Source: Verrucomicrobiales bacterium
Lineage (GTDB): Bacteria; Verrucomicrobiota; Verrucomicrobiia; Verrucomicrobiales; DEV007
Assembly: GCA_029213195.1 (NCBI GenBank)
Contig: JARGNI010000022.1
Location: 1-35,562 of the forward strand
Direction: 5' to 3'
Length of the DNA: 35,562 bases
A program made the translations under genes and the position numbers. How positions within the stretch are numbered: position 1 is the first letter of the stretch; each line of letters starts with the position of its first letter. Below the pieces are notes generated by a model that was given only the letters and a program-made list of their open reading frames with translations, had not been told where the DNA came from and searched no databases. Shown piece after piece: positions 1 to 28,659 of the stretch.

Positions 1-237
1 TTTTCACCAACGAGACGGAGGGACATCGTCCCCGATGTCCGCCGAGAAGGGAATGATGCGCGGTGAAGACCGAAAGCGGACCGCGAGGACGCGGTCCCTC
101 CCAGGCAGGCGAAATGGTCCTTCGATTTTTCACCAACGAGACGGAGGGACATCGTCCCCGATGTCCGCCGAGAAGGGAATGGCGCACGGTGAAGACCGAA
201 AGCGGACCGCGAGGACGCGGTCCCTCCTCGGCAGGCA
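1..237. repeat. Two tandem copies of a 126-bp repeat with paired hairpins
   Basis: The sequence from 1 recurs with a period of exactly 126 bases (position 5 matches 131), with few substitutions, and fades out near 237. Because 126 is divisible by three, an ORF runs through both copies, but its arginine-rich translation does not look like a protein. Each unit holds two perfect 8-4-8 hairpins: GGACATCG-TCCC-CGATGTCC at 21-40 and 147-166, and GGACCGCG-AGGA-CGCGGTCC at 78-97 and 204-223. The first is an inverted copy of the same element as the second. The left edge of the array is cut by the window, so the copy number is unknown. Confidence 0.9.
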
Positions 238-2680: not shown

Positions 2681-3322
2681 TTACATATTGCGAAAAATCT
2701 CTGCTGTCTTGGCTTCGAATTCTTCCTCGCTCAGGACTCCGGCGTCGCGCAGCTCTTCGAGTTTCTTGACCAGCTCGTAGTTCTTCTGCGCCACTTCTTC
2801 TTTCCCTTCAAACTTCTTCACGAAGTCCTTTCCTTTCTCGAGACAGTCACGATAGGTCTCCTTCGCCTTCTCGAGATCGACATCGAGGAAGTTGCCATGT
2901 TCCTTGAAATGATGGATCGCAACCTGGCAGACCGCATAGGTGGAAGCTCCTGACAAAGCCATCATGCTGAGTCCTCCAATGATGGATCCCACTCCCGGGA
3001 TGACCTTGATCATGCTCGCCCCGATCCGGGCAAAGGTTCCGCCTGCGAGGGCAGCGACGAAGCGTTTCCCAGTCGATTCCGAATAGTCGATCTCGTAGGT
3101 GTTGGCGAGTTGCTTCAGGGCATCCATCTGGATGGCCGTCACGGCAGCCACGTCGAAAAGCGGAACCGGAACGGCTCCCGCCCCCACGGACCAGAGGGTG
3201 TGGTTGCGCACGATGCGATCTGCAGCCGCATCCGGATCCCCGTTGGAAGGAATCGTAAGGTCCGTCGCAGTTTCGTCGGACGAAGAGGGAGTGGATTGGG
3301 TAGGATCTTCGGAGTCGCTCAT
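2681..3322 (-). CDS. DUF697-like membrane protein with C-terminal SHOCT domain
   Basis: Starting at the ATG at 3322 (MSDSEDP) gives 213 residues; an upstream ATG at 3334 is possible. After a Ser/Thr/Asp-rich N-terminus (about 1-35) comes a DUF697-like region: ADRIVRNHTLWSVGAGAVPVPLFDVAAVTAIQMDALKQLA, then KRFVAALAGG and a glycine-rich hydrophobic segment (IKVIPGVGSIIGGLSMMALSGASTYAV) likely to be membrane-inserted. DUF697 domains occur in YcjF-type proteins linked to GTPases and stress. The C-terminus (LVKKLEELRDAGVLSEEEFEAKTAEIF) is a clear SHOCT domain, a short module often fused to membrane proteins. The gene is divergent from the sulfatase at 3491 and convergent with the GMC gene. Cellular role is unknown. 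Confidence 0.8.
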   Translation of the reverse strand: MSDSEDPTQSTPSSSDETATDLTIPSNGDPDAAADRIVRNHTLWSVGAGAVPVPLFDVAAVTAIQMDALKQLANTYEIDYSESTGKRFVAALAGGTFARIGASMIKVIPGVGSIIGGLSMMALSGASTYAVCQVAIHHFKEHGNFLDVDLEKAKETYRDCLEKGKDFVKKFEGKEEVAQKNYELVKKLEELRDAGVLSEEEFEAKTAEIFRNM

Positions 3323-3423
3323 GAGAACCATCATTCTACAGACGGCCTCGAAAGGCGATTACAATATCCTGCCCAACTTGGAGCGGAGAAGCGGCCCTCG
3401 GCTCGGCAATTCCATCGATCCTT

Positions 3424-3441
3424 CGCAATCCCTCGATTGCG
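3424..3441. repeat. Perfect 7-4-7 hairpin in a divergent promoter region
   Basis: CGCAATC-CCTC-GATTGCG forms a perfect 7-bp stem with a 4-base loop. It lies in the 168-base divergent region between the DUF697-like gene and the sulfatase, 49 bases before the sulfatase ATG. It could be an operator or an mRNA leader hairpin. Confidence 0.55.
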
Positions 3442-3490
3442 TTCGAAAAGCGATGGAGATTCTCCGGGGAGCAAAGACATTGGCTGCCCT

Positions 3491-5008
3491 ATGAAATTTC
3501 GTCTCCTTTTTGCCGCCTTGCTTCTCAGCGGATTCCTTCACGCCGATGATCGGCCCGGCGATGATCGCCCCAACATCCTCTGGATCTTTTCGGAGGATCT
3601 TTCTCCCTACTTTGGTTGCTACGACGATCCCATCAACTCAGGCCACACCCCGGCGATCGATAAGCTGGCGGCAGAAGGAGTTCTTTTCCGTCGGGCCTTT
3701 ACTCCGGCTCCGGTATGCTCCCCCGCGAGATCCGCGATCATCACCGGGAAGATGCAGACGACGACCGGCACTCATCAGCATCGTTCGAGTCGGTCTCCGA
3801 ATGGAAACATCGTCCCCGAAGACACTCGGATTCATCTTCCGGAAGGAATGAAGACGATCCCTGAGCTGATGCGAGAAGCGGGCTATTTCACCTTCAACAG
3901 CGGGAAGGACGACTACAACTTTCACTACGATCGCCGGGATCTCTACTCCGTCGGGACCAAGGACGACTACGAGCCGGGAATGAATGGATGGCAGGGAAAC
4001 TTTGCCCGTCACAGCGGCTCCTTTACCGAAGATACCTGGAAGAGTCGCCCCAAGGAAGGCCAACCCTGGTTTGGACTGATCATGATCTGGGGAGGCAAAG
4101 CCAAGGCCAAGCATGTTCGGAAGGGCGAGAAGCTGGCCGATGGAGACGTCCCGCTCCCCCCCTACTATCCGGAAAGCCCCGAGCTCCAGCAATCCTGGAC
4201 CGAACACTACAATGCGGCGCGAGGCGCGGATGCCCAGATCGAGGAAATCCTCGCTTTGCTGAAGAAGGACGGAGAACTGGAGAATACGATCGTCTTTTTC
4301 TTTTCCGATCATGGCAACAACCAGAGCCTGCGTCACAAGCAGTTTTGCTACGAGGGCGGTGTGCACATCCCTTTGATCATTCGAGGAAACCATCCGGCGC
4401 TCAAAGCGGGAACGGTGCGCAAGGAACTCGTGAACGGATTGGATATCCCGGCCACGACCCTGGCTTTCGCCGGTGCCGAGTTGCCCGATCATCTCGATGG
4501 CCAGGATCTCTTTTCTGAGGACTACAAACCGGTCGATTTCGTGATCTCGGCGCGCGATCGCTGCGACTACACGATCGATCGCATCCGAACCGTCCGCACC
4601 GACAAGCTCCGCTACATCCGGAACTTCTTCCTCGATCGTCCCATGCTGCAGGCCCAGTATCGGGATCTGCGACCCCCTGTCCTCGCTCTGAAACGCCTTC
4701 GAGATGCGGGAGAACTGACCGAATACCAGCGGGAGCACTGGTTCGGAGAGCGCCCGAGGGACGAACTTTACGATCTCGCCAATGACCCTCACGAGGTCAA
4801 CAACCTTGCTGACGACCCGGCCTACGCCGAAGAGCTGAAACGCCATCGCGAGATCCTCGAAACCTGGATGAAAGAGACGGATGACCAAGGTCAATACCCC
4901 GAACCCGCCGTCCAACTCAAGGCCACCTACGATCTCTGGAAGGACAAGCCCATTTTCAAGAATGCGGAGGTCAATCCGGAATACGATCAGTTCAAGAAAG
5001 ACGAGTGA
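3491..5008 (+). CDS. Sulfatase (heparan N-sulfatase/S1-type), exported
   Basis: A 505-residue protein with a signal peptide (MKFRLLFAALLLSGFLHA). The ATG at 3491 is chosen because it begins this signal; the reading frame is open further upstream without a signal. The sulfatase signature CSPAR starts at Cys76, the residue converted to formylglycine. The N-terminal metal-binding loop reads FSEDLSPYFGCY (Ser-Glu-Asp rather than the usual Asp-Asp), and the second metal site reads FFSDHGNN. The SED variant and the C-terminal RDELYDLANDPHEVNNLADDP block resemble the N-sulfoglucosamine sulfohydrolase-like group common in Planctomycetota and Verrucomicrobiota. It probably removes sulfate from a polysaccharide or glycan in the periplasm; the substrate is not known. 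The HD-domain gene follows after 25 bases. Confidence 0.93.
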   Translation: MKFRLLFAALLLSGFLHADDRPGDDRPNILWIFSEDLSPYFGCYDDPINSGHTPAIDKLAAEGVLFRRAFTPAPVCSPARSAIITGKMQTTTGTHQHRSSRSPNGNIVPEDTRIHLPEGMKTIPELMREAGYFTFNSGKDDYNFHYDRRDLYSVGTKDDYEPGMNGWQGNFARHSGSFTEDTWKSRPKEGQPWFGLIMIWGGKAKAKHVRKGEKLADGDVPLPPYYPESPELQQSWTEHYNAARGADAQIEEILALLKKDGELENTIVFFFSDHGNNQSLRHKQFCYEGGVHIPLIIRGNHPALKAGTVRKELVNGLDIPATTLAFAGAELPDHLDGQDLFSEDYKPVDFVISARDRCDYTIDRIRTVRTDKLRYIRNFFLDRPMLQAQYRDLRPPVLALKRLRDAGELTEYQREHWFGERPRDELYDLANDPHEVNNLADDPAYAEELKRHREILETWMKETDDQGQYPEPAVQLKATYDLWKDKPIFKNAEVNPEYDQFKKDE

Positions 5009-7227: not shown

Positions 7228-8667
7228 TTATCGATCGGGATAGTCCTCTCCCGACCAACTCTCCAGGACAGAACGCTGCCAGTCTTCGAGAGCTTGCTGC
7301 ATGGCTTCGACTCGTTCCGGATTTTCCGAGAACACGTTCGTCGCCTCCATCGGGTCGTCCTCCAGGTGATAGAGCTCCCAGGTCACCTTGGCTCCCTTGG
7401 AACCCTGGATGCGATGCAACTTCCACGGCCAGTCGGTCCAGGCAGCGTGACCGTGCAGATCCTCGGGATCGCGACGGGGAAATTCCGCGGTGTTCTTGAG
7501 AATTCTCTCAGGGTGGGGATTGGCCGCACCCGCTTCACGAGCCTCGAGCAGTGCCTTGATGATGCGATCGCTGTGAGTCGATTGCCCTGACATATACCCA
7601 TGCCAGAACCCCATGGGCGGGTGATCCTCCTCTTCTCCATCGAGAATAGCGACAAGGGAAACCCCATCGAGTCGGGGCTGGGGATCGACCTTCGCTCCTG
7701 CGATCTCCAGCAGGGTTGGGTAGAGATCGGAGGAATTGACCGGAGTATTGATCTCACCGGCCTCATACCGGCTTGGCCATTCCAACACCGCAGGGACGCG
7801 AAGTCCTCCCTCATAGATCGAGCCTTTCTTCTTCCGTCCGCCGGAGGAAGCCTCCACGAGTCCCCCGTTGTCGCTGTGATAGAGAAACAAGGTATTCTCC
7901 GCGATCCCGAGGTCCCGTAAGCTCTGTCGGAGTCTCCCGATCTGCTCGTCGATCAGGGTGATCTCTCGGAAGTAGCCGGCAGACTTGGAATTCTTCTCCT
8001 CGTTGTAGAGAGTCGAAGCGTTGTCCACTTCCTGGGGGAGCTCTCCAAAAGGAGCGTGGGGCGACGGGAACCAGGTCACGGTGAACATCGGCTTTCCTCC
8101 ATCATGGTGTTTTTCGAGGAACTCGACAGTCGCATCCATACTGACGACCGTACCGGGCCCCTCGATCTTCTCGTAGTCCCCGTTGCGACTGAGGTAGGGA
8201 TCGTTGTCGAAGAAGTTCAAACCGGAGAGCCATTCGTCGAACCCCTGTCCTCCGGGAGAGGTAGGGCTCCCTGGCTGCACCGATCCGATATGCCATTTCC
8301 CGAAGTGCCCCGTCACATAGCCGGCTTCCTTCAGCGCTTCCGCAATCGTGATCTCATCGGGTCTCAGATAATGACCATGATTCGGAACATTTCCTCGAAA
8401 CGGATGCCGTCCTGTCATGACGCTGGCGCGAGTCGGAGAACACACCGGAGCCGCGGCGTAGAAGCGGTTGAACACCACTCCCACCTTCGCCATGTCATCG
8501 AGGTTCGGCGTCTGAACAAACGGGTGCCCGGTGAATCCACAATCCCCGTAGCCATGGTCGTCTGCCATGACCAGCACGATGTGGGGTCGTTCGGAGGCGA
8601 TCCCGGCGGAAGCAAAAAGCAGGGAAAAAGAGACCAGGCAGAATCGGAGAAGACGGAAGGGAGTCAT
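7228..8667 (-). CDS. Arylsulfatase A-type sulfatase, exported
   Basis: A 479-residue protein from the ATG at 8667, which begins a signal peptide (MTPFRLLRFCLVSFSLLFASAGIA); an upstream ATG at 8730 adds a non-signal-like extension. The catalytic signature is CSPTR with Cys76. The first metal loop is ADDHGYGD (about 35-42) and the second is HSDNGG. KWHIG and the C-terminal ELYHLEDDPMEATNVFSENPE block are also typical. It probably hydrolyses sulfate esters of a glycan in the periplasm. It is divergent from the exported protein at 8794, with 126 bases between the starts that hold an 8-bp inverted repeat. Confidence 0.93.
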   Translation of the reverse strand: MTPFRLLRFCLVSFSLLFASAGIASERPHIVLVMADDHGYGDCGFTGHPFVQTPNLDDMAKVGVVFNRFYAAAPVCSPTRASVMTGRHPFRGNVPNHGHYLRPDEITIAEALKEAGYVTGHFGKWHIGSVQPGSPTSPGGQGFDEWLSGLNFFDNDPYLSRNGDYEKIEGPGTVVSMDATVEFLEKHHDGGKPMFTVTWFPSPHAPFGELPQEVDNASTLYNEEKNSKSAGYFREITLIDEQIGRLRQSLRDLGIAENTLFLYHSDNGGLVEASSGGRKKKGSIYEGGLRVPAVLEWPSRYEAGEINTPVNSSDLYPTLLEIAGAKVDPQPRLDGVSLVAILDGEEEDHPPMGFWHGYMSGQSTHSDRIIKALLEAREAGAANPHPERILKNTAEFPRRDPEDLHGHAAWTDWPWKLHRIQGSKGAKVTWELYHLEDDPMEATNVFSENPERVEAMQQALEDWQRSVLESWSGEDYPDR

Positions 8668-8728
8668 GGGAGAAGGCTGCCAGATGTCCCCCTTTGAGGC
8701 AATCTCATCTCTCACCGACTGGTGGCGC

Positions 8729-8773
8729 ATATCTCAACGACATTTTTCCGTGGAGCATTTCATTCTGAGATAT
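8729..8773. promoter_or_regulatory. 8-bp inverted repeat in a divergent intergenic region
   Basis: ATATCTCA at 8729-8736 is the exact reverse complement of TGAGATAT at 8766-8773, with 29 bases between. It lies between the sulfatase start (8667, minus) and the exported protein start (8794, plus). It is a candidate operator; no regulator gene is adjacent. Confidence 0.4.
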
Positions 8774-10895: not shown

Positions 10896-12239
10896 TCAGC
10901 CCAGGATCTCGGTCAGCTCGCCGGTGCTATCGGCAAATTCCTCGACCGGGGTGTCCACCGCATTGAGCATGGAGACAAACAGGTTCGAGAGGGGAACCTT
11001 GCGACTCTCGTCGAAGGCATGGAGATGCCCATGGCGAAAGCCAAGTCGATTTCCACCTGCCACCTGGATGGGATAGTCCCGGGTGCTGTGAGATCCATGC
11101 GGATGCGCCGATCCCCAGAGCACGACGGTGGAATCGAGCATATTTCCCTCGCCCTCCGGAGTATCGCGGAGACGCTGAAGGAAGTAGGAATGCTGCTCGG
11201 CCCGCCATTTTTCCCAGAGTCCGGAAGCTTCCTCGGGGCGTTTGTGAGCGATGTCGTGGGTGGCACCAGTGTATCCGAAAAGCTTGTTGGCAAAGTTCCC
11301 CACGAGGTTTCCCGTGGAATGCTCGCTCTCGGTCATGAAGGTCGCGAAGCGGGTCGAATCCGTCTGGAGCGCCAGGTAGAGAAGGTCATACATGCAACGG
11401 ATGTATTCCGTCGGGTCCTCGTAGGTAGCATCGAGATTCAACCCTTCCGAATCAATCTCCGGGAGGGGTTCGTGAGTCCAGCGACTGGTGCGCTCGACCC
11501 GCTGCTCGAGGGCTCGGACCGACTCGAGATATTCGTCCATCTTTTCGCGGTCTTCCGCTCCCAGTTTCCCGTGCAGAGAACGATAGTTCTCCATCATGAG
11601 GTCGAGGACACTGGCCTCGCGTTTCAACTCGGAACGCACATCGCCGACTGTCTTGTTCGCATAGGGCTGGAAGAGGCGATTGAAGATTTCCTGGGGACGT
11701 TTCAGGGCCGGAATAGGTCGACCGGGCCCGGCGTGAGAAAGCGTCTTGGACATCCCGTAGGATCCGGTGCCCCCTTCGCTGCCCAACACGAGCGAGGGGT
11801 AACGCGTCTTGTGCCCATTCACCTTGGCAGCGAGCTGATCGACGGAGATATTGTTGGTTTTCTCCGGACCCGTCATGTCGGCTCCCGTGGCAAAGACATC
11901 GCCACAGCTGTGTCCTCCGAGGCCATAACCTCCTGCATGATCGAGCCCTCGCAGGTAGGTGAGCGAGTCCTGGACCGGTTCGAAAGGAGCGGAAGCCCGA
12001 TTCAGGGTGATCGGCCCATTGTCGTGCCGGGGATACCAGCTCCACTCGTGCGCCTTCCCGTCTGCAGTTTTCGGGTCGTAAATTCCGTAGGCAATGTAGC
12101 TGACCACCAATCTCTTGGGACGTCCTTCGCCGGCAAGCCCCTTGGCCCAGCTCATGCCATTGAGGAAGGGGAGTCCAAGGGCGAGTCCTCCACCGCGGAG
12201 AACGTCTCTTCGGTTCAAATGCCAGGATTTCATTTTCAT
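10896..12239 (-). CDS. DUF1552 Tat-exported protein
   Basis: A 447-residue protein. Its Tat-type signal is NRRDVLRGGGLALGLPFLNG at residues 9-28. The body matches DUF1552 (PF07586), a family of secreted proteins of Planctomycetota and Verrucomicrobiota almost always encoded beside DUF1592-type cytochrome proteins. Recognisable stretches are PFEPVQDSLTYLRGLDHAGG, GGHSCGDVFATGADM and DSTVVLWGSAHPHG. It begins with ATGA overlapping the stop of the DUF1592 gene (12236-12239) and ends 3 bases before the SGNH-like gene, so all three are translationally linked. The biochemical activity of the family is not established. Confidence 0.93.
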   Translation of the reverse strand: MKMKSWHLNRRDVLRGGGLALGLPFLNGMSWAKGLAGEGRPKRLVVSYIAYGIYDPKTADGKAHEWSWYPRHDNGPITLNRASAPFEPVQDSLTYLRGLDHAGGYGLGGHSCGDVFATGADMTGPEKTNNISVDQLAAKVNGHKTRYPSLVLGSEGGTGSYGMSKTLSHAGPGRPIPALKRPQEIFNRLFQPYANKTVGDVRSELKREASVLDLMMENYRSLHGKLGAEDREKMDEYLESVRALEQRVERTSRWTHEPLPEIDSEGLNLDATYEDPTEYIRCMYDLLYLALQTDSTRFATFMTESEHSTGNLVGNFANKLFGYTGATHDIAHKRPEEASGLWEKWRAEQHSYFLQRLRDTPEGEGNMLDSTVVLWGSAHPHGSHSTRDYPIQVAGGNRLGFRHGHLHAFDESRKVPLSNLFVSMLNAVDTPVEEFADSTGELTEILG

Positions 12240-14827
12240 AGGTCTGGGGTGGATGGAGAGGGAAAAAGAAAAAGGTCACTGAGGCAAACGGAAAGAACCA
12301 GGTCTCGCCACCGAGCATCCCGGCCCTGGGCTTCCTTGACAAGCGCTTCGATCGCATAGCGATCGCGATACGTGAGTTCTCTGCCGATACCGTAGGTTAC
12401 GAGACGTTCCGTAACATTCCGAACGATGTCTTCGGCGCGATCCCTGAGAAGATAATTCTTGAGCTCGTCGACTCCGTCGATCTCGGGCCCATGAGGCACT
12501 CGAGCCGAGGCTTCCACCGGAACGGTGAGGAGTTTCTCAAGGGCTTCTTCGTAACCTTGCAGATCGCGGTGCACCGTTTCGCTGAACCGTGGAATGCGAG
12601 TCCCTGGCCCGGGGACAACCGGCTGAAACTGGCCCGCTGCATTGTATTCCTCAAAAGGAATGCCCCAGGGATCGAGACGGACATGACAATCATTGCAACC
12701 TTCCTGGGTCCTGTGCTGACGGAGCAGATCCTTGATCGAAACGGCCGTCTCCGCCGACTCTCCGGTCGTATCGCTCAGGGCAGGAACTTCCGCGGGAGGT
12801 GGCTTGACCTTGTCCCCGAGAATCGCCTCGCGGAGCCAGACCGCCCGATAGATCGGGTGAGGCGCCGACCCGGTGCCATTTCCTACCAGGATGGACCCAT
12901 GCGTAAGCAATCCGCCCAATCGATCCTCCTTCTCGAGAGGAACCCGGCGAAAGCCGATCCCCTTGACCCCGTCGACTCCGTAGTGGGCTGCGAGCGGTTC
13001 GTTGAGCCAACCAAAATCCGAGTCGACAATGTCGAGGACCGGGCGGTTCCCCCGGATCAATTCGGCAATGAAGCCGCTCGTTTCCTGCAGCATGTAATCG
13101 CGGATCGTCGGTCGAAAGAGCACCTCCTGCCCTCGACGCTCGCCGTTGGGCACGGTGTAGAGAAACCGGGGAAACAGGTCGCGATTGATATTGATCGCCT
13201 TCGCTTTTTCGAGGCTCAACCACTGCAAAGAGAAATTCTCCACAAAGTCGGCACTGCGCTCGTCGTCGAGGAGGCGCTGGACTTGCTTCTCGAGGATCGC
13301 TGGATTCTTCAGGTTTCCTTTTCCGGCCAGGACCAGCAACTCTTCATCCGGCATCGAGCCCCAAAGAAAATAGGACAGGCGCGAAGCGAGTTCGTAATCC
13401 GCGATTGTCACCCCATCCCCCGCCACGGTGTGATACAGAAACTGCGGAGCAATCAGCACCATCGACAGGGTTTCCCGCATCGTTGCTTCCAAGGTTCCGA
13501 ACTCCGGCTCCAGCATTTGATAGAGTCGGAAAAAGCGCTCCAGTTCCTGGGCCGAGGGCGGTCGGCGAAAGGCTCGCCCCATGAATCGTTCGAGAACGAG
13601 ACGCACGTATTCCTCGGGATCGCTTTCCCTTTCTGGCGAGTCAAAAAGAATCCGGGTGTGGTGGTGAGGAGGCCACGTATCGGCAACCGGCGCTTCGAAC
13701 TCGATCGACCGGACGACCACCCGCGGAGCGTCGAATTTCCAGTCGTTGTCGAGATGGTTCCTCCGATGATCGTTGAGACGCCCATTGTCGAACAGATTCT
13801 GGGCGTAGAGATAACGAGTCGATGGTAGCTGCCCCTTGTCGGTGACCTTGCCTACCTGGATCGGATGATTCTCGATCCGACCGCGAAACTCGAATTCCTG
13901 GAGATCATCGACCTTGTTCTTCAACAAGACCGACCCCACCGGTTCGTAGTCACCTGTGCCAGCATCGCTTCGAAGATGCGACCCCATGACGAGACGAAGA
14001 GGAACTTGGTCGTGGCCAAGGGGAAGAATCGCAGCCGCCTTGATGCGAATCCGGTACTCGCCCCTCTCGGGCCACTGCTTCAGAACGACTCCGTTTCCAA
14101 CCGTTCCCCGCCGAGTCCCATAGACCCCGACCTCGTCCGGCTGACTCTCCGCGAGAATGGATCCCCGAGGGTCGAAGGTCCATTCCTGTCGCACAACTTG
14201 CGGTTCACCCGGGTCGACAATGGCGCTGGCGAGAGCCTCCCGGGCATTGTCGAGATAGCGATCGACCTGGTCCGGCCCAAGCAGCATGAACTCTGCTGTA
14301 TTGTTGAAATGATAGGGTTTGTGAGGATCTTCAGGAAGCTTCTCCGCCAGGTTGAGCTCGAAACCGAAGAGATCCCGCATCGTATTCTGGTATTCGAAGT
14401 TGGTCAGTCGACGCGCCGTCGGCTCGGGGGCAACCTGACTGGCACTTCGGATCGCTTCGCGTAGACCCGCATCGATCCACTTCGCCACCGCGCTCTTCCG
14501 CTCATCGGAGGGTTGGAGTTCGTCTTCCGGAGGCATCTCCCCCGACTTCAGGACTTCCAACACGAGTTCCCATCGCTCCAACTCGAGCCCCGCAAGAAGG
14601 TCTCCGTCGAGGGAGTGCAGGGTGATATCGCCCTTGCTCTTCTCTGGACCGTGACATTGGAAACAATGCTCCTCGAAAAAGGGCTTCACGTGATCCGCAT
14701 ACCCGGCCAAACCCGCGGGAATTTCGGTGCCCTGCCCGGGGACCAGGAACCCAACCACCGAAAAGAACAAGATTGCTCTCCGAAACAAAGGCAAACGCGG
14801 TAGGAGAGCCAGGCAGGAGGCGAACAT
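12236..14827 (-). CDS. Planctomycete-type cytochrome c / DUF1587-1595-1592-1588-1585 protein
   Basis: An 863-residue exported protein. After the signal peptide (about 1-33) comes a planctomycete cytochrome c domain with a haem motif CFQCH (Cys55, Cys58, His59). Then follow the usual domains in order: DUF1587 (RRLTNFEYQNTMRDLFG), DUF1595, DUF1592 (YELASRLSYFLWGSMPDEELL), DUF1588 (LTHGSILVGNGTG) and DUF1585. A second CxxCH-type motif, CNDCHVRLDP, sits at 711-720 just before DUF1585. The length is normal for the family. It is the first gene of the three-gene operon. A periplasmic electron-transfer or oxidative role is inferred from the haem motifs; the substrate is unknown. Confidence 0.94.
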   Translation of the reverse strand: MFASCLALLPRLPLFRRAILFFSVVGFLVPGQGTEIPAGLAGYADHVKPFFEEHCFQCHGPEKSKGDITLHSLDGDLLAGLELERWELVLEVLKSGEMPPEDELQPSDERKSAVAKWIDAGLREAIRSASQVAPEPTARRLTNFEYQNTMRDLFGFELNLAEKLPEDPHKPYHFNNTAEFMLLGPDQVDRYLDNAREALASAIVDPGEPQVVRQEWTFDPRGSILAESQPDEVGVYGTRRGTVGNGVVLKQWPERGEYRIRIKAAAILPLGHDQVPLRLVMGSHLRSDAGTGDYEPVGSVLLKNKVDDLQEFEFRGRIENHPIQVGKVTDKGQLPSTRYLYAQNLFDNGRLNDHRRNHLDNDWKFDAPRVVVRSIEFEAPVADTWPPHHHTRILFDSPERESDPEEYVRLVLERFMGRAFRRPPSAQELERFFRLYQMLEPEFGTLEATMRETLSMVLIAPQFLYHTVAGDGVTIADYELASRLSYFLWGSMPDEELLVLAGKGNLKNPAILEKQVQRLLDDERSADFVENFSLQWLSLEKAKAININRDLFPRFLYTVPNGERRGQEVLFRPTIRDYMLQETSGFIAELIRGNRPVLDIVDSDFGWLNEPLAAHYGVDGVKGIGFRRVPLEKEDRLGGLLTHGSILVGNGTGSAPHPIYRAVWLREAILGDKVKPPPAEVPALSDTTGESAETAVSIKDLLRQHRTQEGCNDCHVRLDPWGIPFEEYNAAGQFQPVVPGPGTRIPRFSETVHRDLQGYEEALEKLLTVPVEASARVPHGPEIDGVDELKNYLLRDRAEDIVRNVTERLVTYGIGRELTYRDRYAIEALVKEAQGRDARWRDLVLSVCLSDLFLFPSPSTPDL

Positions 14828-16845: not shown

Positions 16846-18471
16846 ATGAAAAAACGGTTTCTGACCCTCCTTCTCTTCGTTGCCGCCCAGGCATTCTCCT
16901 CGGCGGATGACCGCCCCAATATCGTCTTCATCTTTTCCGATGATCACGCCACCCAGGCCATCAGTGCCTATGGAGGCCCACTTGCGGAAATCGCACCGAC
17001 ACCTCACCTCGATGAGATCGCCCAGGAGGGCATGCTCTTCCAGCGCTGCATGGTGACCAACTCGATCTGCGGCCCCAGCCGGGCGACCATTCTGACCGGA
17101 AAATACAGCCACAAGAATGGGTTCTTCATGAACGAGAAGACCCGATTCGACGGATCGCAGCAAACCTTCCCGAAGCTCCTGCAGAAAGCCGGGTATGAAA
17201 CCGCCCTGATCGGAAAATGGCATCTCGCCAGTGATCCCACGGGGTTTGATCACTGGGACATTCTCCCCGGACAAGGCAGCTACTACAATCCGGACTTCAT
17301 CAATCCCGAGGGCAAATACCGGATCGAGGGCTACGTCAGCGAAGTCATCACGGAGAAAGCCAAGCAATGGCTCGACAAGGAGCGCGACCCTGACAAACCC
17401 TTCATTCTCATGGTCCAGCACAAGGCTCCTCACCGGGCCTGGGATCCTGCTCCGAAATACCTGACCGCTTTCGACGACGTCACCATCCCCGAGCCGGACA
17501 CCCTCTTCGATGACTATTCCGGGAGAGGAACCGCAGCCCGGGATCAGGACATGACGATCGAGAAAACGATGACAATGGGTCGCGACCTCAAGGTCAAGGA
17601 ACTCGATGACACGGGAAATTTTGTCATCGGAGCATTGGGACGCATGACCGAGGAGCAAAGGGCGACCTGGGATGCGGCCTACCAGGCGAAGAACGAAGCC
17701 ATGCTCGCTGCGAAGCTCGAGGGAAAAGAACTCGTGCGGTGGAAATACCAGCGCTACCTCAAGGACTACCTGCGTTGCATCAAATCCGTCGACGACAGCG
17801 TCGGGGAGATCCAGGCTTTCCTCGAAGCCAGCGGATTGGCCGAGAACACGGTCTTCATCTACTCGAGCGACCAGGGTTTCTACCTGGGCGAGCATGGGTG
17901 GTTCGACAAGCGATTCATGTTCGATGAATCCTATCGCACTCCCCTCCTCGTCCGCTGGCCTGGAGTCGTCGAGCCCGGATCGGTGAACACCGATCTCGTT
18001 TCCAATCTCGATTTCGCCCAGACGTTTCTCGATATCGCGGGAGCCGAGATTCCAGAAGACATGCAGGGAGGGAGCCTCGTGCCCATTCTAGAGGGTACAG
18101 TTCCAAAGCACTGGCGGATGACTCACTACTACCACTACTACGAGTATCCGGGCTGGCACATGGTCCACCGGCACGAAGGGGTCTACGACGGGAGATACAA
18201 ATTGATGAACTTCTACGACCTCGAAGAATGGGAACTCTACGACCTCGAGACCGATCCCCAGGAGATGAAAAACCAGTATGAGAATTCGGAACTCGCCGGC
18301 GTTCGGAAACGACTTCACGGAGAGCTGGATCGTCTTCGCGAACAGTATGAGGTCCCCGAAAATGAGAAGCAGGATCTTACGAACGTGAATATGCACTTTC
18401 ACTCCGAAGAGATCCGGAAGCGCGGGATCGAGCGGATGAAAAAGCGCCAGGAGAACGCAAAGAAGCCCTGA
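16846..18471 (+). CDS. Sulfatase (GlcNAc-6-sulfatase/S1_11-like), exported
   Basis: A 541-residue protein with a signal peptide ([20 protein letters not shown]). The catalytic motif CGPSR has Cys75 and Arg79; the metal sites are FSDDHATQ (about 30-37) and [22 protein letters not shown]. The GEHGWFDK and [12 protein letters not shown] blocks are typical of the N-acetylglucosamine-6-sulfatase-like and choline/heparan-type groups, so the likely substrate is a sulfated amino sugar or other glycan. The C-terminus is a charged helix rich in Lys, Glu and Arg. Its start is preceded by a pyrimidine-rich stretch without a Shine-Dalgarno site. It lies 78 bases after the lactonase-like gene and may share its transcript. 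Confidence 0.93.
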
Positions 18472-26827: not shown

Positions 26828-27118
26828 ATGTCCAAGCTCACCATTGTTGCCAATATTTTCGCGAAACCCGATCAAGTTGATCTCGTGAGAACCGAACTCG
26901 CCAAGCTCATCGCGCCAACGCTCGCCGAGGAAGGTTGTCTGCAATATGATCTCCACCAGGACAATGAGGACCCTGCTCATTTCCTGTTCTACGAGAACTG
27001 GGCTTCACGCGATCTTTGGCTTGTCCATATGGAGCAGCCCCATATCAAGGCGTATGCCGAAGCTACGGAAGGAGCGGTCGATCACTTCACGCTTCACGAG
27101 ATGACGCATCTCGATTGA
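26828..27118 (+). CDS. Antibiotic biosynthesis monooxygenase (ABM)-domain protein
   Basis: A 96-residue protein from ATG 26828 (MSKLTIVANIFAKPDQVDLVRTELAKLIAPTLAEEGCLQYDLHQDNEDPAHFLFYENWASRDLWLVHM). This is the full ABM/ferredoxin-like dimeric alpha-beta barrel pattern, with the typical GCLQYDLHQD and YENW signatures. Family members include quinone-type monooxygenases (YgiN) and haem-handling proteins. The substrate is unknown. An open frame begins upstream at 26756 but lacks family residues. It is not clearly in an operon. Confidence 0.9.
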   Translation: MSKLTIVANIFAKPDQVDLVRTELAKLIAPTLAEEGCLQYDLHQDNEDPAHFLFYENWASRDLWLVHMEQPHIKAYAEATEGAVDHFTLHEMTHLD

Positions 27119-27168: not shown

Positions 27169-27240
27169 CCCGACAACGGGGACGTTGTCCCTCCATTGAG
27201 AGAAAAGGTCTGATGTAGCGGAACTTGCAAAAGTTCCGAT
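27169..27240. repeat. Pair of hairpins from two dispersed families
   Basis: The first is GACAACG-GGGA-CGTTGTC at 27172-27189, followed by CCTCC; it keeps the loop, the closing CG pairs and the GTCCCTCC right end of the 126-bp repeat element, but has a different inner pair. The second is CGGAACTT-GCAA-AAGTTCCG at 27219-27238, with TGTAG upstream, matching the reverse complement of the 18597 hairpin outside the central ten bases. They lie between the ABM gene end and the sulfatase end. Confidence 0.8.
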
Positions 27241-27267: not shown

Positions 27268-28659
27268 CTATTTTTTCTCACCGAACTTCCAGACGTGACC
27301 TTCGGCCACAATCTCGGTGTGCAACGCTTTCATCTCGCGACTCATTTTTTTGAGTATGTCAGGGTGGGAAGCGGAGAGTTCATTCTCCTGCGCGAGATCA
27401 TCTCCGAGATGATACAGTTCGAACTGGGTCAGGGGCGCACTCTTGATCATGGGCATGTCGGGAGCCGTGAGGGGATGAGTGTGCTTCTTGATCGGGTCGT
27501 CGAGATACCCGATCACGACGAACTCGCCCTTCCGCATCGCTGCCGCGGGCACAACGCGATAGAAGAACCACATCAGGGGGGTCTTTCGCTCGATCGGGTT
27601 TCCGGAAAACAAGGGAACCAGGCTGACTCCGTCGATAGGACGGTCGTCGGGAATTTTCGTATGAGTAAGCTCGCAGATCGTGGGAAGAAGATCGAGATGA
27701 CTGATCAAGGTGTCGTCCACCTTCCCCACCGGAACCCTACCGGGCAGACGAAGGATGCCCGGTTCGCGGTGTCCGCCCTCCCAGACAAAAGATTTCCGAC
27801 CTCGCAATCCCTCGTTGGACCACGAATTCACGCCTCCGTTGTCCGAAGTCAGGAAGACGAGAGTGTTCCCGGCACGACCTGATTTCTCCAGCTGGTCAAG
27901 AATTCTACCGACGGCGATATCGACGTTTTCGATGTTGGCGTAATACTCGGCTTGTTTCCGACTCTTCTTCCCGCCACCGAGGCGCTCTTGATATTTCGCC
28001 ACCAGTTCGGGTGGGGATGCGATCTTGGAATGAGGTTCATGAAACCAGACCACTCCGAGGAAGGAAGAATGCACGTCGATACCGCTCAGCCACTCGTTGA
28101 ACTCATCGGCGACGATCTGGCAGGAATACCCTTCCTGCTTCCCGATTTTTTCGCCGTTGCGGACGAAATTAACCGGATCGAGATGGGAAGGTTCCGCATT
28201 GTTGCTCGTTCCGAGGGAATGATCGAATCCCTGGTCACCCGGTTGCGGCTGTCCCTCCGTTTTGCCATCGAGATCGGACACATGCCACTTTCCGAAATGC
28301 CCCGTCGCGTATCCTTTCTCTTTGAGCAGTTCCGCAATGGTGATCTCTTCATCTCGCAGGTGCATGGGATGAGCGGCCGGAACATACGAATACATCCCGG
28401 CCCGCGTCGGCATGCGACCCGTCAACATGCCGACCCGTGAGGGGGAGCAGTTCGGCGCTGCTGAATGACAGTCCGTAAAACGAATCCCCTCTGCGGCGAG
28501 GGCATCGATCCTCGGCGTATCGATCTCACTCCCATAACAGCCGAAATCCGTATAGCCCGAGTCATCGAGCATGATGAGGAGAATGTCAGGCGTCGCACGC
28601 TCCTCTCCCAGACCGATGACGGTGAAAAGTGAAAGGAGACCAACGAGACCAGTTTTCAT
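27268..28659 (-). CDS. Sulfatase (arylsulfatase-like), exported
   Basis: A 463-residue protein with a signal peptide (MKTGLVGLLSLFTVIGLGEE). The formylglycine motif is CSPSR (Cys71, Arg75); the metal loops are LDDSGYTDFGCYG (about 31-43) and FLTSDNGGVNSW. HFGKWH and WEGGHREPGILRLPG are also family blocks. It probably acts on a sulfated glycan in the periplasm. It lies 60 bases downstream of the CelD-like acetyltransferase gene on the same strand and could be co-transcribed with it. Confidence 0.93.
   Translation of the reverse strand: MKTGLVGLLSLFTVIGLGEERATPDILLIMLDDSGYTDFGCYGSEIDTPRIDALAAEGIRFTDCHSAAPNCSPSRVGMLTGRMPTRAGMYSYVPAAHPMHLRDEEITIAELLKEKGYATGHFGKWHVSDLDGKTEGQPQPGDQGFDHSLGTSNNAEPSHLDPVNFVRNGEKIGKQEGYSCQIVADEFNEWLSGIDVHSSFLGVVWFHEPHSKIASPPELVAKYQERLGGGKKSRKQAEYYANIENVDIAVGRILDQLEKSGRAGNTLVFLTSDNGGVNSWSNEGLRGRKSFVWEGGHREPGILRLPGRVPVGKVDDTLISHLDLLPTICELTHTKIPDDRPIDGVSLVPLFSGNPIERKTPLMWFFYRVVPAAAMRKGEFVVIGYLDDPIKKHTHPLTAPDMPMIKSAPLTQFELYHLGDDLAQENELSASHPDILKKMSREMKALHTEIVAEGHVWKFGEKK

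Follow-up and report, generated by a model that had tools for sequence, protein, structure and literature searches.

The BIMEs of Escherichia coli combine two types of REP sequences. In Pseudomonas fluorescens SBW25, inverted REP doublets predominated (93% of 430), with preferred spacings of 71 and 110 bp; these extragenic doublets, the REPINs, carry compensatory changes, have a cognate RAYT and were proposed to be the replicative unit (accessible text of PMC3116915). The REPs of E. coli are characterized by a GTAG tag and a required stem bulge, and selection of the CT cleavage site is ascribed to the guide bases A3G4 of the tag (accessible text of PMC8266576), while H101 of the E. coli enzyme TnpA_REP is listed among the guide-contact residues (accessible text of PMC6006769). 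Perfect short stems with loop bases that matter were described for the Group 3 REPtrons of Stenotrophomonas (Sm) and Marinomonas (Mb), which use GTAG and other loop sequences than those reported below, and in Sm the tag is located directly at the foot of the hairpin (accessible text of PMC8266576). Tagged GTAG/CGTC palindromic repeats forming homo- and heterodimers are known from the phylum of the DNA studied here, namely from Opitutus terrae (Verrucomicrobia), and hairpins with a CnGA foot accompany the Class 3 TnpA_Y1 transposases, which have a Y----Q signature (accessible text of PMC3733652 and PMC6006769, respectively). In the accessible text of PMC3686654, PMC6006769, PMC8266576, PMC3733652 and PMC2817692, REPs were defined or listed with GTAG or GTGG, the other published tags being the degenerate GYAG, GYRG and GTMG and the CGTC and CnGA classes. 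A word starting with GGAG was not found in the main text of these five papers, nor was GGAG found in a RAYT or extragenic-palindromic context by a full-text literature search, which mostly did not cover subscription journals.

The window, which is the whole analyzed stretch of 35,562 nucleotides from contig JARGNI010000022.1 (C44) of a Verrucomicrobiales bacterium, started with a tandem array of two 126-bp units (1-250), each consisting of a REPIN and its flanks. The units (1-124 and 127-250) were 93% identical at a spacing of 126, and the assembly may have truncated the array, which starts at base 1 of the contig. The first REPIN (17-101) was a tail-out doublet, in which a minus-strand hairpin (17-40; GGAG tag at 17-20 on the plus strand, stem 21-28/33-40, inner triplet ATC, loop GGGA) was separated by a 37-nt spacer from a plus-strand hairpin (78-101; stem 78-85/90-97, inner triplet CGC, loop AGGA) ending in CTCC at 98-101, that is, GGAG on the minus strand. 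The second REPIN (143-227) formed the second unit of the array, and its hairpins at 143-166 (minus) and 204-227 (plus) were 24-mers identical to the first and the second hairpin, respectively. All four matched the family pattern GGACNNNGRGGACNNNGTCCCTCC exactly. A lone copy with one mismatch (27171-27194, plus strand; inner triplet AAC, loop GGGA) was located between predicted genes ending at 27118 and 27268. These five matches were obtained with up to three mismatches allowed, whereas 100 shuffles of the window gave a mean of 0.12 and never reached five. DNA folding gave both main hairpin types an 8-bp stem closed by a loop of 4 nt (-8.5 and -11 kcal/mol), and a folding z of -4.2 was obtained for the doublet at 15-105. 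The Rfam search of the window gave no match.

The initial annotation had described a 126-bp repeat with hairpins of a shared design, and this was confirmed. The outer arm that it had given as GCGGAC was paired in the GGAC/GTCC part only, the 5' GC and the 3' CTCC being outside the stem. The one variable inner pair set was refined to three variable inner pairs (ATC/GAT, CGC/GCG and AAC/GTT), whose bases indeed change together, and a G-C pair beside the loop. The third copy, placed at 27169-27194, was real with slightly different borders, and its outermost pair was lost. As for the surroundings, the tandem array was followed by the genes of a gluconate 2-dehydrogenase subunit 3 and a GMC oxidoreductase. 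Four sulfatase genes were present among the ten ORFs of the window that were scanned (3110-5008, 7228-8730, 16846-18471 and 27268-28659), and a PSD/PSCyt-type cytochrome gene was located at 12236-14827.

Further, the family was searched for in the assembly of the same genome. With at most one mismatch to GGACNNNGRGGACNNNGTCCCTCC, 99 copies were found and none of the reversed pattern; with at most three, the numbers were 126 and 33. The 24-nt unit was present in 81 exact copies, and a covariance model gave at least 104 matches at E≤0.1 when 150 of 5838 first-look candidates were scored. The tens of copies expected by the initial annotation were thus present, and a 24-nt palindrome in 99 copies is within the 20-50 nt size and the high copy number of REPs. 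The family was nearly confined to its own genome, copies with at most one mismatch being recorded in three of 35 other genomes (one in G001, four in G011 and six in G027).

The covariation of the inner bases, claimed from the window, was assessed on 28 distinct copies, in which 93.8% of the pair cells were standard. Two-sided changes were recorded in 33 cells, shuffling giving 11.2 and slid partners no more than 4, and were confined to the pairs 5-16, 6-15 and 7-14. The copies are related, and the 3 pairs that changed on both sides did not exceed what the shuffles gave (2.5); therefore, the covariation is to be understood as maintained pairing and not as a tally of independent events.

The intergenic bias, which had been proposed as a check, was strong: 70 of the 99 copies were intergenic against 11.4 expected for random places, a count that depends on a home-made codon and gene model. 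An earlier, poorer model, which placed genes on the wrong strands, had given 45 of 99 against 13.7 and was replaced. Among the 29 non-intergenic copies, 20 were in ORFs that scored 8 or less or had over-extended starts, and 9 were located otherwise.

The 99 copies occupied 42 places, 18 of which held a single copy. Neighbours at most 250 nt apart were arranged as -+ in 35 cases, +- in 21 and -- in one, so that 56 of 57 alternated in orientation. Two inverse REPs with a short spacer, the layout of a REPIN or BIME, were thus seen in 35 tail-out pairs; their starts were 58-64 nt apart in 24 pairs, one loop was GGGA and the other AGGA in 30, and the inner triplets differed in 32. The family therefore resembles the REPINs of SBW25 in its inverted doublets, preferred spacing, extragenic location, compensatory changes and, as described below, a likely cognate RAYT (PMC3116915, accessible text), but differs from them in the tag and in the unlike halves of the doublet (inner stem in 32/35, loop base in 30/35). 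The alternating REPs in arrays, each with a tag and a stem-loop, are like the REP/BIME elements processed by TnpA_REP (4er8), to which the enzyme described below is homologous; in E. coli the tag is GTAG and the bulge is required, whereas here a GGAG tag is combined with a perfect stem (PMC8266576, accessible text). The perfect short stem is shared with the Group 3 REPtrons, and the tag directly at the foot with Sm. The likeness to REP or BIME elements proposed by the initial annotation consequently stood with respect to copies, layout and RAYT, and was amended in two respects: the unit, a tail-out doublet, is better named a REPIN, and its tag is outside the GTAG/GTGG definition.

Conservation dropped beyond the GGAG...CTCC borders, except for a G at -5 and a mirror C at +5 (22 doublets, one per place), and among 80 distinct outer flanks the +5 C was present in 47. 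GA was likewise conserved 4-5 nt 5' of GGAG, mirrored by TC 3' of CTCC, and is possibly a target preference or a part of the recognised end. Arrays such as those at C57:99932-100539 (spacing 167) and on C113 (spacing 124) resemble products of local amplification. On four contigs (C20, C32, C44 and C92, the last one twice), at least five ends were within 80 nt of a copy; the repeats fit the breaks of the assembly, and the true number of repeat units is probably larger than the assembled one, contig ends falling in arrays.

The initial annotation had stated that no RAYT was present. This was correct for the window, but the genome harbored an intact RAYT gene (G000:C57:221602-222081) with the family on both sides. 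It filled a gap in an array, between copies at C57:221281-221595 and 222129-222344 (seven to one side, five to the other), the nearest of which were at most 60 nt from the frame on either side. The gene was found by tblastn with a 227-aa RAYT of another genus (G027) as the query (match G000:C57:221674-221892, E=6.9e-5). The predicted protein of 160 aa from ATG contained PDHLH (HuH), WQ and AYVRNNP with the catalytic Tyr, that is, the complete RAYT signature of HuH, a single catalytic Tyr, WQ and YVxNNP. It scored 80.9 bits against NCBIfam NF047646 (REP_Tyr_transpos), 0.9 bit above the cut-off of 80, and 16 bits against Pfam Y1_Tnp, below the cut-off of 23; the match to PDB 4er8 (labelled TnpArep, the E. 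coli TnpA_REP) had an E of 1.7e-8. H70, H72 and Y130 were invariant across this protein and four homologues, whereas the Q of WQ varied. Among the matches listed, the enzyme was present at the C57 array only, out of 42 places, and thus is not carried within the mobile copies as in IS200/IS605 elements.

RAYTs 48% identical to the C57 enzyme were recorded, among the matches listed, in two genomes of the same genus, G126 and G142. They adjoined hairpins with an RGGA loop and a CTCC tail that had different, yet paired, stems: five in G142 and one in G126, where the contig ends near the RAYT gene. This is what would be expected from an enzyme and an element evolving together. At L134 (G142:C146), a second hairpin type with the 6-nt loop TTCCAC was found beside the RGGA type, both GGAG-tagged and within one RAYT array. 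In G027 (L082:6955-8406, C1), a 227-aa RAYT was flanked by two REP types in alternating orientation, GACGGTG-RGGA-CACCGTC-ACTCC and TCGACG-GGGA-CGTCGA-CCTCC.

The search of the own genome with PF01797 (Y1_Tnp) returned three genes, none with the window hairpin family, and missed the C57 gene at E≤0.001. Each of these Y1/RAYT genes was framed by palindromes of its own: GCCGC-GAA-GCGGC with GACAGCA at G000:C88:12936-16277 (L001), GGCCTGAAGGGCC (GGCC..GGCC) at G000:C81:164464-167796 and GTAG-tagged inverted pairs at G000:C71:3548-6760. The genome apparently holds four REP-like systems. The existence of three further transposase genes raised the question whether one of them mobilised the window family, with the C57 gene as a bystander. 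This is very unlikely, as their palindromes differ from the window hairpin, which was absent within the 3.2-3.3 kb around each of them, while the C57 gene has the family on both sides.

A role in the host, such as mRNA stabilisation, transcription end or protein binding, with spread by duplication and an incidental RAYT neighbourhood, would fit the compensated stems and the intergenic places, both of which are compatible with a fold selected at the RNA or DNA level, and such roles have been reported for REPs (accessible text of PMC6006769). Such an explanation is nevertheless improbable. No terminator-like T run was present 3' of the stems at positions 1-400 of the window, the near confinement of the family to one genome is unlike a conserved host role, and the polarity and the doublets match REPINs. 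REPINs and MITEs are alike in size and organisation, and yet a remnant of a defunct IS200/IS605-like element, or of another MITE, with no relation to a RAYT hardly comes into consideration, given the open RAYT frame with catalytic motifs inside the family and the many identical copies.

It was concluded, with a probability of about 0.86, that the hairpins are REPs arranged as REPINs, which are palindromic DNA elements that are not autonomous and depend for their multiplication on a RAYT (TnpA_REP), likely the one encoded on C57. By analogy with TnpA_REP of E. coli, the C57 enzyme would most likely bind the single-stranded hairpin with its 5' GGAG tag, recognise it by the tag, the loop and the outer GGAC/GTCC pairs whatever the inner triplet, provided that this is paired, and nick and join next to the hairpin. 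The REPINs would thereby be copied by the enzyme, and the tandem arrays may have arisen later by local duplication. We proposed that the tag GGAG represents a variant form of the GTAG guide, common to several RAYT lineages, with base 2 presumably read by residue 116. Since GGAG keeps A3G4, the CT cleavage site is predicted to be unaltered, the change being limited to how base 2 is read.

Read 5' to 3' on the strand that a RAYT would process, the element is GGAG-stem-loop-stem. The foot is GGAG and not the published GT[A/G]G, so the family was filed as a GGAG variant working like a REP rather than as a canonical GTRG REP. It shares tagged palindromes and both homo- and heterodimers with the repeats that include those of O. 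terrae, but the tag degeneracy given for them was GYAG, GYRG, GTRG, GTMG and GTGG, with no GGAG word (accessible text of PMC3733652). With Class 3 TnpA_Y1 it has in common that hairpins next to a Y1 transposase have a foot other than GTRG, the foot sequence and the enzyme signature being different (accessible text of PMC6006769).

The tag was then called at 232 RAYT loci, which were the best-scoring part of longer match lists, from hairpins repeated on both sides of the RAYT whose foot 4-mer was read. When any tag was allowed, GGAG (66) and GTAG (60) ranked first among the foot 4-mers. The guide labels were GGAG in 66 loci, GTAG in 59 and GTGG in 10, with one tie and 96 unlabelled (31/96, 30/60 and 35/76 in the three sets). 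The reversed-sequence control of the same loci gave GGAG 4, GTAG 1, GTGG 7, one three-way tie and 219 unlabelled, and random places, mostly devoid of a RAYT, gave 8 labels in 420, GGAG accounting for 6/420. The GTGG calls were considered unreliable (10 against 7 in the reversed control) and the final table was restricted to GTAG and GGAG. In the first set a RAYT was found with the seeds used in 123 of 132 loci, and 96 remained when 6 duplicates and 21 IS200-like loci of the L001 class were left out; two of these RAYTs, shorter than 90 aa, were omitted from the tree and the table (94). The named set contained 76 loci, that is, 80 less 4 duplicates of earlier ones. Its GGAG-labelled members included Verrucomicrobia, Opitutia and Opitutaceae, Cerasicoccus maritimus, Spartobacteria, Methylacidiphilum, Lentisphaeria, Kiritimatiellae and Pontiellaceae. 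C. maritimus NBRC 105382 (L289) is a cultured bacterium whose RAYT adjoins GGAG hairpins. GGAG was also found in MAGs titled Pirellulales, Ignavibacteriales, Fimbriimonadaceae and Anaerolineales, although MAG titles can be wrong. At four loci (L316, L320, L326 and L328) the RAYT matches were approximately 60-140 nt longer than usual, beside 3 to 10 GGAG hairpins, and the domain of these RAYTs may hold insertions.

In the 4er8 alignment, R116 of the C57 enzyme aligned with H101 of E. coli TnpA_REP, and column 116 was the best separator of the tags in both RAYT classes at once when the alignment columns were ranked. Over all sets, the GTAG loci (n=58) had H in 52, R in 5 and N in 1, and the GGAG loci (n=66) had R in 43, T in 18, V in 2, S, K and a gap in one each, and H in none. 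Among loci labelled GTAG or GGAG, all 52 that had His were thus GTAG and none was GGAG, whereas Arg occurred with either tag. Arg at the guide position is insufficient for GGAG, because five GTAG loci carry it; subclasses whose REPs carry GT[AG]G are also reported to have R at 101 (accessible text of PMC6006769). Over all rows, the correlation of column 113 (Tyr) with GGAG was similar to that of column 116 (phi of 0.83 each); column 113 was set aside, since Tyr was present in only one of six rows (L138) of the own GGAG clade, while column 116 separated both classes.

The prediction that R goes with GGAG and H with GTRG was fixed before new loci were fetched. In the first test (60 held-out loci) 30 were labelled, 22 of them with R or H, and 21 of the 22 were predicted correctly, the miss being a GTGG call; the other eight had T, S, K or N, and seven of them were GGAG. 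In the second test (76 named loci), which was not a random sample because it was fetched with a GGAG-clade query, 41 were labelled and all 28 with R or H were correct; the other 13, with T, V or a gap, were all GGAG. GGAG and GTRG interchanged three times on the tree of 94 RAYTs, while a tree of 123 rows (one gap row left out) had six guide changes, three of them forced by well-supported branches; the total was 3, 4 or 6 according to the tree used. When independent pairs were compared, the residue changed in the same direction in a mean of 2.7 out of 3 and in the opposite one in 0.0, a number with which the sign test cannot reach 0.05. As the guide changed only 3-6 times on the trees, this is an association and not a proof: the GGAG tag goes with the absence of the guide-contact His, which may have contributed causally to the change of tag, and the chemistry of Arg and guanine suits the association.

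Taken further, these data may point to a large GGAG-guided REP/RAYT branch, centred on Verrucomicrobiota and extending to MAGs of other phyla, in which the residue at position 101 reads base 2 (His demanding T, Arg or Thr permitting G) and the guide was switched several times with A3G4 constant. We regard the odds of this broader proposal as about even; it includes the suggestion that the branch was overlooked because REPs were searched for as GTRG. The annotation of REPs leans on the GTAG/GTGG tag, and GGAG was as common in the RAYT loci sampled. The natural guide switches, together with a candidate specificity residue, would make the reading of the tag by RAYTs testable by single-residue swaps.
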